Under the pieces are notes generated by a model. It was not told the DNA's origin. It saw nothing but the letters and a program-made list of their open reading frames with translations, and did not search any database. This document shows positions 51,395-59,680 of a DNA stretch of 64,000 nt, piece after piece. The translations under genes and the position numbers were made by a program. This DNA comes from Claveliimonas bilis (lineage in GTDB: Bacteria > Bacillota > Clostridia > Lachnospirales > Lachnospiraceae), in the NCBI RefSeq assembly GCF_030296775.1, contig NZ_AP027742.1, positions 1,364,001-1,428,000 on the forward strand, in the 5' to 3' direction. Each line of letters opens with the position of its first letter. Within the stretch, counting starts at the first letter, position 1.

Positions 51395-51423
51395 TTGTCG
51401 AAAAGAGAGGATTCAAGTATAAT
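51395..51423 (+). promoter_or_regulatory. Promoter of the LacI-type regulator gene
   Basis: TTGTCG (51395-51400), 17-base spacer, TATAAT (51418-51423). Confidence 0.65.
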
Positions 51424-51454
51424 AGACAAAAGAAGGAGAGAAAGGAGGGATCAT

Positions 51455-52429
51455 ATGGCAGGAATACGAGATGTTGCCAGGGAAGCGCATGTAGGTATTG
51501 GCACGGTATCGCGTTACTTAAACGGAAGCGGCTATGTGTCTGAAGAGAGCAGAAACCGGATAGAGACCGCTATCAAAACACTTGATTATCAGCCCAATGA
51601 ATTGGCGAGAAACCTCTACAGGAACCGATCGGGGATCATAGGAGTGATCGTACCGGACTTGGAACATCCTTTTTTCTCAAAGCTGAGTAAATACATTGAG
51701 ATCAATCTTTATGAGCGGAATTATAAGACTATGATCTGTAATACTGTAGGGATCAGTAACCGGGAAAAAGAATATTTGAAGATGCTGGAGAGAAATGTGG
51801 TGGACGGGATAATTGCAGCTGCCCATACGCTGCACAGCGAGGAATATCTGAAGATCAACAGGCCGATCCTGGCCATGGATAAAGACTTTAACGGGCAGAT
51901 ACCGTTGGTACATTCCGATCACAAAAAGGGAGGTGCCCTTGCGGCTGAAGCAGTGATAAAGGCGGGATGCCGTAATGTCTTGCAGTTTACTACTTCCTCA
52001 AAAGTGACGACACCGGCCAATCAGCGGCATATTGTATTTGAGGAGATCTGTACGAAACATGGCATCAGGGTAAGGACTGTGGAGACAAACTGGAATCTGT
52101 TTTCCCACGAGCATTTCAGGCGTTATATGCAAAAAGAGATGGTAAAATACCCGGATGTAGACGGTATTTTTTCAGCAGATATTCCGGCTATCGCCTGCAT
52201 GAATGTTTTAAAACAGAGAGGATACAAAATCCCTCAGGATGTAAAGATCATAGGCTACGATGGTTTGGATGTCATTTACATGACAGATCCGCCGCTTACA
52301 TCGGTTTCGCAGGATATTGAAAAACTTGCAGAATGTTGTGTGGATACAATCATTCGGATTATTGAAGGAAAAGAATACGAGAGTCATCAGGTGATTGATG
52401 TGGACTTTGTACAAGGGAAGAGTATATGA
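51455..52429 (+). CDS. LacI-family transcriptional regulator of the fructan locus
   Basis: The 324-residue regulator has an N-terminal helix-turn-helix (IRDVAREAHVGIGTVSRYLNG) with the hinge helix (DYQPNELARNLYRNRS), and a C-terminal periplasmic-binding-like sugar domain. ATG 51455 follows AGGAGGG; the longer frame starts in the promoter. It precedes the sugar importer and probably binds the two palindromes at 52604 and 52660. The effector is likely a fructose-containing sugar (inference). Confidence 0.9.
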   Translation: MAGIRDVAREAHVGIGTVSRYLNGSGYVSEESRNRIETAIKTLDYQPNELARNLYRNRSGIIGVIVPDLEHPFFSKLSKYIEINLYERNYKTMICNTVGISNREKEYLKMLERNVVDGIIAAAHTLHSEEYLKINRPILAMDKDFNGQIPLVHSDHKKGGALAAEAVIKAGCRNVLQFTTSSKVTTPANQRHIVFEEICTKHGIRVRTVETNWNLFSHEHFRRYMQKEMVKYPDVDGIFSADIPAIACMNVLKQRGYKIPQDVKIIGYDGLDVIYMTDPPLTSVSQDIEKLAECCVDTIIRIIEGKEYESHQVIDVDFVQGKSI

Positions 52430-52475
52430 GAAATTAGTAAGAATACACAAAAAAGCATATTTTTTGATGTTGGTA

Positions 52476-52504
52476 TTGACACAAATAGACAAGGGTGCTA
52501 TATT
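52476..52504 (+). promoter_or_regulatory. Promoter of the fructan locus
   Basis: Consensus TTGACA (52476-52481), 17-base spacer, TATATT (52499-52504). The leader from here to the first gene is about 190 bases and holds both operator palindromes. Confidence 0.75.
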
Positions 52505-52603
52505 GAAAATAACTTATAAAGTATTCCCGGAGCGCGCAGGGAAATACGGAATAAGATGTAACCGGAAAAATGAAAGCCAAAAATTATTTTTTTTACTGAA
52601 AAG

Positions 52604-52617
52604 TGGAACGGGTTCCA
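52604..52617. promoter_or_regulatory. LacI-type operator 1
   Basis: TGGAAC-GG-GTTCCA, a palindrome with a two-base centre. It lies in the leader before the binding-protein gene and inside a larger inverted repeat (about 52567-52585 with 52633-52651). Confidence 0.75.
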
Positions 52618-52659
52618 TTATCAAACAGAAACAATTTGGCTTTTCATTTTTAACTACTA

Positions 52660-52673
52660 TGGAACGGGTTCCA
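52660..52673. promoter_or_regulatory. LacI-type operator 2
   Basis: Second identical TGGAACGGGTTCCA, 56 bases (about five helical turns) after the first, with an extra symmetric A/T on each side. It lies just before the ribosome site of the binding-protein gene. Confidence 0.75.
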
Positions 52674-52699
52674 TAAGGAGAAAGAGGAGGACGATTTTT

Positions 52700-54016
52700 A
52701 TGAAAAAAATGACGGCAAAAAGGTGGATTTCCGCAAGTCTCGTTACAGTTCTTTCAGCAGGCCTGCTGGCGGGATGCGGAAGCAGCACAGACGAAGAGAA
52801 CAGTGACGGTGGAGAAACTACGATCAAGTTTGGTATTCATGTAGCCAACCCGGAAGATCAGGAGCCTGTGACTTACAACATTGTCCAGGAATTTAACAAG
52901 AAGTATGAAGGAAAATATAAGGTGGAATTTGAAGCGGCAGATACGGAAACTCATTCCAAGAATCTGAAGCTTCAGTCTACGGATGGAACCCTTCCGGATA
53001 TTTTCTGGGTGGAGGGAGCTCAGGCTCCAGAGTATGCAGAGTCGGGTGTGTTGATGGATCTGTCAGATTATCTGAAGGAAAATACAGATATTGACGAAGC
53101 TTTAAATGGAATGGAAGACAGTTATAACAACGGTGAGATTCAGTATGGTTTGCCTTATCAGTGTAATGTTCAGGGATTTTTCTATAATAAAGAATTATTT
53201 GACGCTGCCGGGGTAGAATATCCTACAAATGAGACTACATATGAAGAGTTTCTGGATATGATCGCCAAATTAAAGGAATCCGGCGTCACTCCGATTGCCA
53301 TCGGAAGCAAAAACAGCAGCTACACAATGTGGGAGTTTAATGAATTTCTGGAAAGATACGGATGGTCTGAAAATATCGATGCGATTTTAAGTGGAGAGAA
53401 GAAATTCAATAATTCGGATCTTGTTGCCTGCTTTGAAAAAATGGAAGGGTTAAAAGATGCAGGTGCTTTTCCGGACAATATGGCAACTATTGAATATTTT
53501 GATGCAAAACAGCTCTTTGACAACGGTACGGCAGCAATGTTTGGCACAGGACAGTGGGATTGCAGTGAGTTTGATGAAAATCTTGGCGATAAAGTAGGAT
53601 TCTGGTGGGGACCTGTCTTTACAGACAGTGATTATGAACAGAACGTGGCGATGAAAGTTCCCGCAGCTCCTATTGCAGTCAATGCAGAAACAGCAGATGA
53701 CGAGACAATGAAGGAAGCTGTCTATACATTCCTTAATTTCTACTACAGTGAAGATGCGGCAAAAATGTCCTATGAAGGCTCTATCTTCCCGGCAACCTCT
53801 TATGAAGGTATTGCAGCTTCCGACACACAGTATGCCATGAACGCAATGCTGGAAGCTCTGTCAGCAGGATGGCCAAGCCCCGAATCAGCTCCGGACCTTA
53901 CAGTTGGCTCTGCTGTTCAGACAGAACTTTACAATGGTATTTTCGGAGTGCTTCAGGGAACATACACACCGGAAGAAGCCCTGGACAAAATGGATGAAAC
54001 TTTGTCCTATGAATAG
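52700..54016 (+). CDS. ABC sugar transporter substrate-binding lipoprotein
   Basis: The 438-residue protein has a lipoprotein signal with lipobox LLAGC (C26) and the family 1 solute-binding fold of carbohydrate importers (GLPYQCNVQGFFYNKELFDAAGVEYP). It captures the sugar outside the cell for the two permeases downstream. The neighbouring fructan enzymes suggest a fructose-containing oligosaccharide. Confidence 0.92.
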   Translation: MKKMTAKRWISASLVTVLSAGLLAGCGSSTDEENSDGGETTIKFGIHVANPEDQEPVTYNIVQEFNKKYEGKYKVEFEAADTETHSKNLKLQSTDGTLPDIFWVEGAQAPEYAESGVLMDLSDYLKENTDIDEALNGMEDSYNNGEIQYGLPYQCNVQGFFYNKELFDAAGVEYPTNETTYEEFLDMIAKLKESGVTPIAIGSKNSSYTMWEFNEFLERYGWSENIDAILSGEKKFNNSDLVACFEKMEGLKDAGAFPDNMATIEYFDAKQLFDNGTAAMFGTGQWDCSEFDENLGDKVGFWWGPVFTDSDYEQNVAMKVPAAPIAVNAETADDETMKEAVYTFLNFYYSEDAAKMSYEGSIFPATSYEGIAASDTQYAMNAMLEALSAGWPSPESAPDLTVGSAVQTELYNGIFGVLQGTYTPEEALDKMDETLSYE

Positions 54017-54089
54017 AGCGGCAGCAAAAACAGAGTATATAGCAGGAATCAAGTTATGATATAGAAGAAACTGCCGGAGGAGATAAATT

Positions 54090-54974
54090 ATGTATTGGCT
54101 TAGTAAAAAAAGATATAAGATCGGACTGGTACTACCTACGTTGATTGTTTACAGTGTGTTTATCATTTTGCCGATCGGGATTGCTGTATGGTACAGTTTC
54201 ACCAAATATTCGGGAATCGGAAAAGCAACGTTTGTAGGACTTGAGAATTACATGAGGCTTTTTAAAGATAAAGTGTTTTGGGTGTCGCTTAAAAATACAA
54301 TGATCATTTTTGTGCTTGCATTTGTTCTTCTTTTGACAATTTCATTTTTGATCGCCCTTTTGCTGAACAATAAACTGAAAGGCACAGATTTTGCGAAAGC
54401 CCTTATATTCTCCCCGGCAATTATTGCGCCGATCATTGTAGGTATTATCTGGGTTTATATTTTGGATCCCAATGTGGGGATCATCAACAACATTTTAGAC
54501 GCGCTTCATCTTGACTTTTTAAAACAGAAGTGGATCGGCGGAGAGACGCTTTCGCCCTACAGTATTGCTTTCATTTATTTCTGGCAGCAGCTGGGGTATC
54601 TGGTGACTATTTTTATTGCAGGACTGAAAATGATACCGGAGGAAGTGCTGGAAGCAGTAAAGATTGATGGCGCCAGCACGATGCAGAAGATTCGATATGT
54701 CATTATTCCTATGATGCGTTCCACCATCTCTACGGTGGCGGTGCTCATCATTACCGGAGTATTCAAGATCTTTGAGATCGTGCAGCAGACAACGGGAGGT
54801 GGTCCGAACCATCTGTCGGAAACACTGGTTACCTATAGTTATTCTACTACATTCACCAGCGGCAATTATGGATACGGAATGTCTCTTGCAACGGTAACAT
54901 TTGTACTGTCTTTAATTATTACGGGGATTTATTCCTTTTTGACACGGGAAAGAGAAGGAGGGAACAAAAGATGA
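54090..54974 (+). CDS. ABC sugar transporter permease (MalF-like)
   Basis: The 294-residue protein has six hydrophobic segments and the ATPase-contact EAA motif (EEVLEAVKIDGASTMQKIRYVIIPMM). It belongs to the CUT1 class of oligosaccharide importers. It overlaps the next permease by four bases. Confidence 0.93.
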   Translation: MYWLSKKRYKIGLVLPTLIVYSVFIILPIGIAVWYSFTKYSGIGKATFVGLENYMRLFKDKVFWVSLKNTMIIFVLAFVLLLTISFLIALLLNNKLKGTDFAKALIFSPAIIAPIIVGIIWVYILDPNVGIINNILDALHLDFLKQKWIGGETLSPYSIAFIYFWQQLGYLVTIFIAGLKMIPEEVLEAVKIDGASTMQKIRYVIIPMMRSTISTVAVLIITGVFKIFEIVQQTTGGGPNHLSETLVTYSYSTTFTSGNYGYGMSLATVTFVLSLIITGIYSFLTREREGGNKR

Positions 54975-55801
54975 TCGGAAAAAAGAAAAAAACAGTGATG
55001 TATATTTTGATCATTGCCATTACATTGATTGTTGTATTCCCTTTTATCTGGATGCTGATCCTCTCCTTCAGGAGCAGCGCCGATATTATGACAAATCCAC
55101 TGGCGCTTCCGGAATCACTGAATCTGGAGAATTATATCAATGCCACTAAGACTCTTGATTTTATCAGACTTTATGGCAACACAATCTTTGTGTGCGTGGT
55201 TTCGCTGATCATAGAGCTGGTGATCACCTTTTTCAGCTCTTTTGTCTTAAGCAGGATGGTGTTCAAAAACAAAAAGATCCGGTCCATGCTGTATGGATTT
55301 TTGATCATTGGATTGTCAATCTCACCATTTATTCTGCTGTTTCCGGTGTATCAGATCAATGTGAGGCTTCATTTAAGGGAACAGTTTGCGCTGATCATGC
55401 CCTATGTGGCGACATCAATTTCCTTTAATACGCTTTTGCTTACCAATTATATGAAATCTCTTCCTGTGGAGATTGACGAGGCGGCCATTATAGACGGCTG
55501 TTCCCTGTGGGATCTGATGTTCCGGGTGATCCTTCCTATGTCGAAGCCGGTCATCGCTACTATTGTAACATTTAATGTCCTTTATATCTGGAATGAATAT
55601 CCGTTTGCCTCAGTTATGCTAAGGGATGTATCAGATTACACTCTTTCCATGGGAGCATCCTTCTTTAAGGGCAACTACACAGTGGATTACGGCGGCATTA
55701 TTGCTTCCAGTGTGATGATCATTATTCCAGAGCTGATTTTCTATGGGATTTTCCAGAAGCATATTGTAGAAGGAATGACAGCAGGAGCTGTCAAAGGATA
55801 A
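54971..55801 (+). CDS. ABC sugar transporter permease (MalG-like)
   Basis: The 276-residue partner has six hydrophobic segments and the EAA motif (PVEIDEAAIIDGCSLWDLMFRVILPM). The operon encodes no ATPase, so it probably uses a shared MsmK-type ATPase, as many CUT1 importers do in Firmicutes. Confidence 0.93.
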   Translation: MIGKKKKTVMYILIIAITLIVVFPFIWMLILSFRSSADIMTNPLALPESLNLENYINATKTLDFIRLYGNTIFVCVVSLIIELVITFFSSFVLSRMVFKNKKIRSMLYGFLIIGLSISPFILLFPVYQINVRLHLREQFALIMPYVATSISFNTLLLTNYMKSLPVEIDEAAIIDGCSLWDLMFRVILPMSKPVIATIVTFNVLYIWNEYPFASVMLRDVSDYTLSMGASFFKGNYTVDYGGIIASSVMIIIPELIFYGIFQKHIVEGMTAGAVKG

Positions 55802-55824
55802 AAACAGGAGAAAGGAAAAGAATT

Positions 55825-57168
55825 ATGAGTAATGTATCAGGATTATTTAAAGATTTGACAACAATTAAAAAGGCAAGAAACGGGCGCCTGGCGAGCTGGG
55901 ATCAGAGAGGAAAAAATCAGGATTACTGGGAAATTCCAGCAGGGGAGAGCATTACACTTGGAGAAATAGAAGGACCGGGTTGTATTACACATATCTGGAT
56001 GACCTCTTCCTGCAGAAGAGTGAAATCCCCCAGTATTCTGGATCCGAAGCTGAATGCATCGGCAGCGCCTGTTATGGAAATCCATCCGGCGCTGGGTGTA
56101 ATCTGGGATGATTATGATCCTTTCTATTACAGAAAGGCTCTGATTAAAATTACATGGGACGATCAGGATACTCCGAGCGTGCTTGCACCTTTTGGCGATT
56201 TCTTTTGCATCGGTAACTGTTATCCGGGGAATTTTTCCTCCCTTCCTTTTAATGTTTCCCTGAAGCCGGAGGAGGCAGGAAGATATGGAGCACCCTGTTC
56301 GGTGTCCTGTTATTTCCCGATGCCTTTTAATAAGAAGGCAAAAATTGAGATCATCAATGAAAATGACATTCCGTTTATTTTATATTTTAATATTGATTAT
56401 GAAATGTACAAGGAACCACTGGATGAGAACACAGCATACTTCCATGCTTCCTGGCATCGGGAAAATCCCTGCGATGGATGGGGACCGGATATTCAGGTCA
56501 ATTCTCCGGAGGTAAATAATGTTACTAACTTAAAAGGGGATGGCAATTATGTTGTACTGGATGTGGAAGGAACCGGACACTATGTGGGCTGCAATCTGAC
56601 AGTAAAACATTACCAGGGTAGCTGGTGGGGAGAAGGAAACGATATGTTCTTCATCGACGGAGAAGAGTATCCTAGCCTGAATGGAACCGGAACAGAGGAT
56701 TACTTTAACCATGCCTGGGGAATGCAGAGGAATGCCTTTCCGTTTTTCGGAACAATTGTCCACGAGGGAGACACAGACGGATTCCAGGTATCTTACCGTT
56801 TCCATATCACAGATCCGGTACGGTTTGAAAAACATTTGAAAGTAACGATTGAGCATGGACATGCAAATCATCTCTCTGACGATTGGAGTTCTACCGCATA
56901 TTGGTATCAGACTCTTCCTACAGCGCAGCCCATTGAGATCCTTCCTGTGGAAGAAAGACTGCCGAATGTTCCTAAGCTTCCGGAGAGGAAACTGACACAG
57001 CCGGAATTGACAGAGGAAATGAAGGCGGCCAGAAGTTCTTATGAAGAGCGCTGGAATGTCTATAAACCGGCCAGGGAAGAGCAGTTCAGAATCAAGGAGG
57101 ATAAAGCAAGAAGAGAATCCCGCCTGAATACAGAATTTGCAAAAAAATTAAGAGATGACTATAAATAA
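55825..57168 (+). CDS. DUF2961/GH172 family glycoside enzyme, cytoplasmic
   Basis: The 447-residue protein has the DUF2961 signature NGTGTEDYFNHAWG (about residues 290-303), whose glutamate is one of the two catalytic acids in GH172, and the early EGPGCITHIW motif. The family includes difructose dianhydride I synthase/hydrolase and arabinofuranosidases. No signal peptide is seen. Its place between a sugar importer and a GH32 enzyme points to a fructose-containing, perhaps cyclic, substrate. A charged, helical C-terminal tail (about 395-447) is an extension. Confidence 0.87.
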   Translation: MSNVSGLFKDLTTIKKARNGRLASWDQRGKNQDYWEIPAGESITLGEIEGPGCITHIWMTSSCRRVKSPSILDPKLNASAAPVMEIHPALGVIWDDYDPFYYRKALIKITWDDQDTPSVLAPFGDFFCIGNCYPGNFSSLPFNVSLKPEEAGRYGAPCSVSCYFPMPFNKKAKIEIINENDIPFILYFNIDYEMYKEPLDENTAYFHASWHRENPCDGWGPDIQVNSPEVNNVTNLKGDGNYVVLDVEGTGHYVGCNLTVKHYQGSWWGEGNDMFFIDGEEYPSLNGTGTEDYFNHAWGMQRNAFPFFGTIVHEGDTDGFQVSYRFHITDPVRFEKHLKVTIEHGHANHLSDDWSSTAYWYQTLPTAQPIEILPVEERLPNVPKLPERKLTQPELTEEMKAARSSYEERWNVYKPAREEQFRIKEDKARRESRLNTEFAKKLRDDYK

Positions 57169-57188
57169 CATAAAGGAAGCAAACGCTT

Positions 57189-58676
57189 ATGTCAAAGAAA
57201 TTAATGCAGGAAAAAATAGAAAAGGCCCAGGAAGAGATTGACAGAAAGAAAGAGCTGGTAAAGCAGGGCAGGATGCGTCAGAATTATCATTTCATGGCCC
57301 AGACCGGGTGGATCAACGACCCTAACGGCCTGATTTATTACAAAGGCAGGTACCATCTGTTTTTCCAGTATAATCCCTATTACGGATTCTGGGATTACAT
57401 GCATTGGGGCCATGCAGTCAGTGAAGATCTGGTGCACTGGGAGTACCTTCCTTTGGCTCTTGCACCAAGCGAAAGCTATGATGACCATATGAGGGGAGGA
57501 TGTTTTTCAGGAAGCGCTATTGAGCATGATGGCAAACTGTTCCTTATGTACACCGGAACAAAGAATGACGGAAATGGATTTGAACAGTCCCAGTGTATCG
57601 CCTACAGCGAAGATGGGATCCATTTTGAAAAGTATGAGGGCAATCCTGTACTCACGGCTCCTCCAAATGTGCCAAAAGATTTTTTTCGTGATCCAAAAGT
57701 CTGGAAACATGGTGGAAAATATTATATGATATGTGGTGCAAGGAAAAATAATTTTGCACAGGCTTTGCTTTACTGCTCCAGGGATATGCTGAATTGGGAT
57801 TTTGTAAATGTACTGGCAGAAAGCCGGGGCGAGTGGGGCTACATGTGGGAATGTCCGGATATCTATCCGCTGGGAGACAAATATGTCCTTATGTTTTCAC
57901 CTATGGGGGCTGGTGAGAGGACCAGCGTCTATCTGGTGGGAGATCTTAACTATGAAACGGGAAAGTTTGTCTATGATGTCAGCGGGGAGATCGATTGGGG
58001 ATTTGACTATTATGCGCCGCAGTCTTTTGAAGACCCGAAAGGAAGGCGGATCCTCATCAGCTGGGCTAACGGTTGGGATTGGATGCCTTTCTGGAAAGAC
58101 TGGGGACCGACATACAAAGAAGGATGGTGTGGGTCTTTTAATATCCCAAGGGAAGTGAAATTGAACCCGGATCATACGCTGAGGTTTGAGCCGGTAGAAG
58201 AGCTGAAGACTCTTAGAGAAGGTGCCCGTGCGAAAGAAGAAATCCTGCTGGAGGAGGAGATCATGGATATCCCGCTTAGCGACGGCGTGTCCTATGAGCT
58301 TAAACTGGAAATTGATCTTAACAGTACGACAGCGGAGACTTTTTCTTTGCAGCTTCGGTCTGATAACGAGAGAAAGACCGAGGTTACATTTGACCTTAGG
58401 GATCAGAGTATGCAGGTTTCGCGGGAGCATGCGGACGGATGGAGCAAAGGGGCCAGCCACAGTCCTCTGAAAATGAAGGACAGGGAAAAGCTTCTTGTAC
58501 ATATCTTTTCAGATAAAAGTTCCATAGAAGTTTTTGCGGAAAATTATGAGACAAACCACAGTTGTAATATTTTTGCAGACGAGACACAGGATCATAACAG
58601 GATATCTGTTCCCCGGGGAAAATTAAAAATCCGATCTCTGGAGACATGGGCCTTAAAAAAGGTGATGGACTGCTAG
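57189..58676 (+). CDS. GH32 glycoside hydrolase (intracellular fructosidase)
   Basis: The 495-residue enzyme has the GH32 nucleophile motif WINDPNGL with D44, the RDP motif in FFRDPKVW and the acid/base glutamate in WECPDIYPLG, then a C-terminal beta-sandwich. It lacks a signal peptide, so it acts inside on imported fructo-oligosaccharides, inulobiose or sucrose. It is not of the sucrose-6-phosphate PTS type by context, because an ABC importer is used. It starts 20 bases after the GH172 gene. Confidence 0.92.
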   Translation: MSKKLMQEKIEKAQEEIDRKKELVKQGRMRQNYHFMAQTGWINDPNGLIYYKGRYHLFFQYNPYYGFWDYMHWGHAVSEDLVHWEYLPLALAPSESYDDHMRGGCFSGSAIEHDGKLFLMYTGTKNDGNGFEQSQCIAYSEDGIHFEKYEGNPVLTAPPNVPKDFFRDPKVWKHGGKYYMICGARKNNFAQALLYCSRDMLNWDFVNVLAESRGEWGYMWECPDIYPLGDKYVLMFSPMGAGERTSVYLVGDLNYETGKFVYDVSGEIDWGFDYYAPQSFEDPKGRRILISWANGWDWMPFWKDWGPTYKEGWCGSFNIPREVKLNPDHTLRFEPVEELKTLREGARAKEEILLEEEIMDIPLSDGVSYELKLEIDLNSTTAETFSLQLRSDNERKTEVTFDLRDQSMQVSREHADGWSKGASHSPLKMKDREKLLVHIFSDKSSIEVFAENYETNHSCNIFADETQDHNRISVPRGKLKIRSLETWALKKVMDC

Positions 58677-58702
58677 GGACGACGAAAATAAGGAGGAAAG
58701 AT

Positions 58703-59665
58703 ATGGAGAAGAAGTATGATGTTGTGGCATTGGGAGAGCTTTTGATTGATTTTACGGAAAATGGTTTAAGCAGCCAGGGGAATCCTCTGATGGAGGCAAA
58801 TCCGGGGGGAGCGCCCTGCAATGTACTGGCTATGCTGAACAAACTGGGAAAGAAGACGGCCTTTATCGGAAAAGTGGGCCGGGATCAGTTTGGAACCATG
58901 CTGAAAACAGTAGTGGAGGAGAGCGGAACAGATGTCACAAATCTGATGATGGACGATGAGGTTCACACCACACTTGCCTTTGTCCATACCTTTCCGGATG
59001 GGGATAGAGAATTTTCTTTTTACCGGAATCCGGGAGCGGATATGATGCTGAAGAAAGAGGAAGTCGATCCCGAGATCATAAAAGCGGCAAAAATTTTCCA
59101 CTTCGGTACTTTGTCCTCCACTCACCCGGAAGTGCGGGAAGCTACAAGGTATGCCATTGATGTGGCAAAAGAGAACGGCCTTTTGGTTTCCTTTGATCCT
59201 AATTTAAGAGAGCCTCTCTGGGACAGCCTTGAGGATGCCAGAAAAGAGATCGAATATGGTCTTGGAAAATGCGACATTCTGAAAATTTCCGATAATGAGA
59301 TGGAATTTATGACTGGAACGGACGACTACAACAAAGGTGTGGAGATGCTAAGAGAAAGCTATGATATTCCTCTTATCTTTGTGACTCTTGGAAAAGAAGG
59401 AAGCAGGGCATATTACAAGGACATGATCGTAGAGGTAGCTCCTTTCATTAGAAAAGATACTATTGAGACTACGGGGGCGGGCGATACTTTCGAGGCGTGT
59501 GCTTTGAATTATGTGCTGGAGCATGGCCTTGAGAATCTGACAGAAGAAAATTTAAAAGAGCTTCTTCGCTTTGCAAATGCAGGAGCATCCATCATCACAA
59601 GCCGCAAGGGAGCTTTGAAAGTGATGCCGGAAAAAGAAGAGATAGAAAAAGTCCTGGGCTTATAA
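58703..59665 (+). CDS. PfkB-family fructokinase
   Basis: The 320-residue kinase opens with VALGELLIDFTENG, has the substrate-binding NPGGAPCNVLAMLNKLG segment and the catalytic ETTGAGDTFEACAL motif with its aspartate base. It phosphorylates fructose freed by the GH32 and GH172 enzymes to fructose 6-phosphate. ATG 58703 follows AAGGAGG. A strong terminator overlaps its end. Confidence 0.93.
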   Translation: MEKKYDVVALGELLIDFTENGLSSQGNPLMEANPGGAPCNVLAMLNKLGKKTAFIGKVGRDQFGTMLKTVVEESGTDVTNLMMDDEVHTTLAFVHTFPDGDREFSFYRNPGADMMLKKEEVDPEIIKAAKIFHFGTLSSTHPEVREATRYAIDVAKENGLLVSFDPNLREPLWDSLEDARKEIEYGLGKCDILKISDNEMEFMTGTDDYNKGVEMLRESYDIPLIFVTLGKEGSRAYYKDMIVEVAPFIRKDTIETTGAGDTFEACALNYVLEHGLENLTEENLKELLRFANAGASIITSRKGALKVMPEKEEIEKVLGL

Positions 59666-59680
59666 GCCCGGGACTTTTTA
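59648..59680 (+). terminator. Terminator after the fructan operon
   Basis: Arms 59648-59662 and 59663-59677 pair over most of fifteen bases around a small TATA loop, followed by TTTTT. The left arm covers the last fructokinase codons. Confidence 0.88.

Follow-up and report, generated by a model that had tools for sequence, protein, structure and literature searches.

A seven-gene cluster in Claveliimonas bilis

The window analysed here is a stretch of 64,000 nucleotides from Claveliimonas bilis (Lachnospiraceae; contig NZ_AP027742.1, positions 1,364,001 to 1,428,000). It contains, at 51.4-59.7 kb, a cluster of seven genes, all on the + strand, for a LacI-family regulator, an ATP-binding cassette (ABC) importer, a GH172 protein, a GH32 enzyme and a kinase. 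Open reading frame (ORF) and profile searches gave every gene a strong family match, which bears out the gene content claimed by an earlier, sequence-only reading of this DNA. We propose that the cluster is very probably an operon for taking up and using difructose dianhydride I (DFA I), a cyclic fructose disaccharide of caramelised sugar (PMC8605356, cited here and below for the passages drawn on), and probably also diheterolevulosan II and inulobiose, and that it is orthologous to an operon of Bifidobacterium dentium. Its features, in window coordinates, are:

51455..52429, + strand: LacI-family regulator (PF00356, 63 bits; PF13377); ORF listed from TTG 51395
52604..52617, no strand: operator-like palindrome TGGAACGGGTTCCA, copy 1 (match to pattern TGGAACNNGTTCCA)
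52660..52673, no strand: operator-like palindrome TGGAACGGGTTCCA, copy 2 (match to the same pattern; core GGAACNNGTTCC)
52700..54016, + strand: sugar-binding lipoprotein of the ABC importer (PF01547, SBP_bac_1, 116 bits; lipobox-like LLAGCGSS)
54090..54974, + strand: ABC permease 1 (PF00528, BPD_transp_1)
54971..55801, + strand: ABC permease 2 (PF00528, BPD_transp_1)
55825..57168, + strand: GH172 protein, predicted DFA I synthase/hydrolase and alphaFFase1 orthologue (DUF2961, PF11175, 284 bits; 86% identity to 7v1v)
57189..58676, + strand: predicted intracellular GH32 beta-fructofuranosidase (Glyco_hydro_32N, PF00251, 328 bits; Glyco_hydro_32C, 71 bits; scrB_fam)
58703..59665, + strand: PfkB-family kinase, probably a fructokinase (PF00294, 182 bits; PDB matches)

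Two of the starts given here differ from those of the listed ORFs: for the regulator, ATG 51455 after a GGAGG ribosome site is likelier than the upstream TTG; for the kinase, ATG 58703 with a purine-rich ribosome site is likelier than the listed start at 58646, from which the ORF overlaps the GH32 gene. The lipobox was judged by eye on the translation, and no signal peptide was visible, again by eye, at the N termini of the GH172 and GH32 proteins. The genome is a single contig of 3.11 Mb with one DUF2961 match, and the closest named locus found is that of Claveliimonas bilis c-25 (L002), whose GH172 protein is 100% identical and whose other six proteins are 97-100% identical (best tblastn segments).

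Identity and substrate of the GH172 protein

In a PDB search the best solved relative of the GH172 protein was 7v1v, the alphaFFase1 of Bifidobacterium dentium (952 bits, residues 1-446), to which it is identical at 385 of 446 residues (86%) with 0 gaps; the only other chains matching at E up to 1 were 4kq7 (a hypothetical protein, 193 bits), 8ah3 (177 bits) and 8ic8 (111 bits). The protein also exceeds the thresholds of the published homologue set (>47.45% identity and >79% coverage to alphaFFase1). All twelve active-site and calcium residues tested, which are those named by Kashima et al. (PMC8605356) in their structural and mutagenesis work, are kept: N31, D33, E85, K147, Y187, W267, E270, N272, T288, E291, D292 and W298. 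These include the nucleophile E291, the acid/base E270, the -1 subsite residues W267, D292, W298 and Y187, and the +1 subsite residues E85 and K147. On this comparison the protein is an orthologue of alphaFFase1, the founding GH172 enzyme and a DFA I synthase/hydrolase (PMC8605356).

AlphaFFase1 acts on DFA I, diheterolevulosan II, inulobiose and Frup-beta-2,1-Fru, and not on DFA III or inulin (PMC8605356). Because an enzyme 86% identical to ours is inactive on the latter two, the substrate of the cluster would narrow to DFA I and its kin. The earlier proposal of fructo-oligosaccharides or cyclic difructose anhydrides was thus right in its difructose-dianhydride link, but too broad.

That the protein is instead an alpha-D-arabinofuranosidase whose targets would be D-arabinan fragments of the mycobacterial type we find hardly credible, and we rejected this candidate. 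DUF2961/GH172 does include an exo-alpha-D-arabinofuranosidase (8ic8; PMC10115798, PMC10509167), and alphaFFase1 itself has such activity, cleaving p-nitrophenyl (pNP)-alpha-D-arabinofuranoside (PMC8605356). However, the 952 bits to alphaFFase1 stand against 111 to 8ic8, so that the firm grouping with arabinofuranosidases, which the sequence-only reading had set against its own proposal, was not seen on scores and residues. E85 and K147 are moreover dispensable for the arabinofuranoside and needed for inulobiose: alphaFFase1 mutated at these residues retains 94-100% activity on pNP-alpha-D-arabinofuranoside and <5% on inulobiose (PMC8605356). The neighbours of the gene, GH32 and a fructokinase-type kinase, also speak against arabinan.

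Related loci and the predicted operator

With the GH172 protein as query we collected 77 loci (L002-L078), from the best 80 of 94 relatives. A script classed 48 as having both E85 and K147, 26 as lacking the pair and 3 as short (L038, L039 and L066). L038 and L039 have GH32 next door; by alignment L066 joins those lacking the pair, so that in a MAFFT alignment it is absent from 27 of 27 loci at 36-48% identity (L051-L073, L075-L078), 18 of them from Caldilineaceae or Poribacteria. A same-strand GH32 match no more than 6 kb away was found in 46 of the 48 E85/K147 loci, counting L002, which is nearly identical to the window; the remaining two (L048, L074) are cut off by the end of their contig. 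Of the 27 loci lacking the pair, 22 of which have at least 1.5 kb of downstream sequence, none had such a neighbour in this count, which used a single query (the window GH32, E 1e-15) that a distant GH32 beside a distant GH172 may escape. The +1-subsite residues therefore track with a GH32 neighbour, and E85/K147 offer a simple residue test for DFA I-type GH172 proteins in genomes. A PfkB match covering more than half of the query occurred in just 11 of the 77 loci, and so the kinase is an optional member.

The gene neighbourhood is kept in loci of Lachnospiraceae, Oscillospiraceae, Bifidobacterium, Actinomyces and Treponema. Across L003-L018 the GH172 protein is 90-94% identical to that of the window, against 61-78% for GH32; in five Bifidobacterium, Actinomyces and Treponema loci (L020, L025, L026, L029, L033) it is 74-88% identical, and the sugar-binding and GH32 proteins are 41-62% identical. 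Such conservation across phyla may stem from lateral sharing, from strong constraint on GH172 or from both. Within the family, GH172-type matches of any kind were present in 23 of 200 genomes (our own genome and some fragments included) and, besides our own, only five (G104, G057, G110, G136, G133) carry GH172 at 81-92% identity, so the operon is not common there. In a midpoint-rooted tree of 47 GH172 proteins (L002, L038, L039, L074 and all rows above L050 left out) the window and the Lachnospiraceae rows group with Bifidobacterium, Actinomyces and Treponema, apart from ten Streptomyces rows (branch 100/100). No well-supported set of half the rows or fewer contains the window row, the four Bifidobacterium/Actinomyces rows are not one clade (28% of bootstrap trees), and a long-branch warning applies to L048 with Streptomyces. 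The tree backs nothing finer than the separation of the window/Lachnospiraceae grouping from Streptomyces, and gives no direction of lateral transfer.

Pattern TGGAACNNGTTCCA has exactly two matches in the 3.11-Mb genome, at window positions 52604 and 52660, both before the transporter gene; its reversed control has none in the genome. The core GGAACNNGTTCC was found no more than 450 bases ahead of the transporter (sugar-binding lipoprotein) gene in 19 of 36 related loci. These 36 are the members of L003-L078 in which a + strand match to the lipoprotein gene precedes GH172 by at most 6 kb; the count leaves out the remaining 40 of these 76 loci and also L002, a near copy. In one of the 19 (L014) the site, 425 bases upstream, is possibly within the regulator gene. 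Elsewhere in these 36 loci the core gave 6 matches in 544,682 bases, and its reversed control gave 0 upstream of the transporter gene and 2 elsewhere. Most likely the LacI regulator acts at the two TGGAACGGGTTCCA sites to hold the operon off until the sugar lifts repression, and this predicted operator makes regulation directly testable. The passages of PMC8605356 consulted (supplements outside their scope) contain no mention of the palindrome, and we make no claim that it is unpublished.

Two further observations concern this region. A consensus TTGACA + TATATT pair with 17-base spacing, a pattern match only, lies at window 52476-52504, about 100 bases upstream of palindrome copy 1. A second palindrome (AAAGAGGCGCATCTTT-like), with no copy in the window, was seen in 7 of 83 loci, a single copy in each, ahead of the transporter gene (L007 4673; L010 2268; L013 4347; L016 4649; L018 4761; L019 4229; L034 4678), and in six of the seven it stands a few dozen to ~200 bases before the GGAAC operator core.

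A predicted DFA I pathway, its source of sugar and its published relatives

In the pathway that we propose, the lipoprotein and the two permeases would import the sugar, powered by an ATPase encoded elsewhere. No ABC transporter ATPase gene lies in the cluster; the genome has three OB_MalK matches, and the one gene tested, at ~225 kb of the contig, is UgpC-type (502.9 bits, cut-off 432) and probably the partner. In the cytoplasm GH172 would reversibly open DFA I to inulobiose, and GH32 would split inulobiose to two fructoses and so pull the reaction forward, a pull needed because the GH172 equilibrium lies ~9:1 towards DFA I (DFA I:inulobiose 89.1:10.9 for alphaFFase1; PMC8605356). The kinase would convert fructose to fructose 6-phosphate; its four best PDB matches are all named fructokinase. 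The inward path claimed earlier is well supported.

Several points weigh against this proposal. The functions of the cluster proteins are predictions from sequence comparison. AlphaFFase1 prefers inulobiose to DFA I by a factor of ~20 (kcat/Km 0.813 vs 0.0378 per mM per s; PMC8605356), and its arabinofuranosidase side activity was noted above. The GH32 protein passes the NCBIfam sucrose-6-phosphate hydrolase subfamily model (scrB_fam, 381.7 bits, cut-off 356.4; best PDB match 7vco), which cannot separate inulobiose from other beta-fructosides; the kinase falls below the NCBIfam fructokinase cut-off (198 vs 450 bits); and among solved structures the lipoprotein matches only distant relatives (94 bits at best), so that we infer its cargo. 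In 17 of the 36 related operons the search found no operator core; these include four of Bifidobacterium/Actinomyces, three of Oscillospiraceae (L021, L022, L024) and several of Lachnospiraceae.

The same kinetics, and the fact that GH32 matches several kinds of beta-fructofuranosidase, would suit an operon for general short fructo-oligosaccharides (kestose, inulobiose) handled by GH32, with GH172 merely rescuing a by-product. We consider this improbable, since GH172 is far more conserved than GH32 (see L003-L018 above) and since GH91 genes sit within the operon in [Clostridium] clostridioforme AGR2157 (L007) and an uncultured Lachnospiraceae (L011); both features point to DFA I as the cargo.

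These GH91 genes were found with the GH91 protein of a Streptomyces locus (L041), a fructotransferase relative (PDB 8hsn, 696 bits), which matched 6 of 83 loci, its own included: four of Streptomyces, L007 and L011, all of the E85/K147 class. In L007 and L011 they lie between the regulator and transporter genes (L007:3374-4549, L011:4551-5726), and from the likely ATG the proteins begin MA(A/T)TFYDVTTF. An Enterocloster clostridioformis inulin fructotransferase is given as DFA I-forming in the part of PMC11538131 consulted. No signal peptide was visible by eye on the L007 and L011 proteins, which is odd for an enzyme meeting inulin outside the cell and argues against a straightforward route from inulin. 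With the L041 GH91 query the window's genome yielded no match, and the three-stage pathway from inulin to DFA I was thus not found in it; the same query matched 5 of 200 family genomes (GH91-like, 45-47% identity) and 2 of 2 control genomes, among them the one it comes from. Because the window's genome is without a GH91 match, the organism would scavenge DFA I supplied by food or other microbes. More tentatively, the DFA I operon may be a module that carries an operator of its own (core GGAACNNGTTCC), common to many Bacillota loci and a Treponema locus, with Bifidobacterium/Actinomyces versions without that operator, which possibly spread laterally between phyla as a private DFA I route; GH91 joins it in L007 and L011, and some gut members would then make DFA I from inulin and import it by the same operon.

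The sequence-only reading held the pairing of GH172 with GH32 to be unusual. It is canonical, because Kashima et al. (2021; PMC8605356) found the alphaFFase1 gene alongside GH32, ABC transporter and LacI regulator genes in one operon, and the pairing is both the arrangement in which GH172 was discovered and that of the 46 E85/K147 loci above. They report both enzymes to be without signal sequences, and suggest that the transporter seems to import substrates and that GH32 may split inulobiose; growth of B. dentium on DFA I is their unpublished observation, and they describe homologues as highly conserved among bifidobacteria and Clostridia of the gut (the latter including Dorea, Clostridium, Faecalimonas, Coprococcus, Ruminococcus). 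The operon is restated in a commentary (PMC8718956, seen in part), and literature searches on difructose/operon and on Claveliimonas showed no further paper on it among the hits listed. Our cluster is a close copy of the B. dentium JCM 1195 operon (BBDE_2039-2043 and regulator), with the same genes side by side, enzymes without signal sequences, and GH172 proteins alike in sequence and tested residues as described above. It differs in its PfkB kinase, unlisted in the published operon description as drawn on here; and the regulator is upstream in the window, but downstream of GH32 in Bifidobacterium/Actinomyces loci L020, L025, L026 and L033 (the B. dentium locus itself is outside this comparison). 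The find is thus real, though its pairing is not novel: the cluster leaves existing knowledge of the pathway unchanged and adds a well-anchored gut Lachnospiraceae case for caramel-derived cyclic sugars.

Two other systems are comparable. The Blautia DFA III cluster (Ye et al. 2024, PMC11538131, same passages) shares ABC import, a reversible step from a cyclic difructose to inulobiose, cleavage by GH32 and, in some clusters, a sugar kinase, but has a GH91 DFA-IIIase in place of GH172, and DFA I was degraded by 0 of 5 Blautia strains tested. Streptomyces davawensis, with an inulin route via DFA I, has a putative GH172 (51.4% identical to alphaFFase1) and GH32 with adjacent locus tags (PMC8605356), whereas the window genome is without a GH91 match.

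The absence of a phosphotransferase system (PTS), also claimed earlier, holds for the cluster but not for the genome, which has a second GH32 gene (scrB family, ~1.067 Mb, L080). As this lies immediately behind a gene that matches PTS EII, the genome also holds a PTS-linked beta-fructosidase route. The second GH32 gene is convergent with a gene that, judged by reading, resembles a GntR-type regulator.

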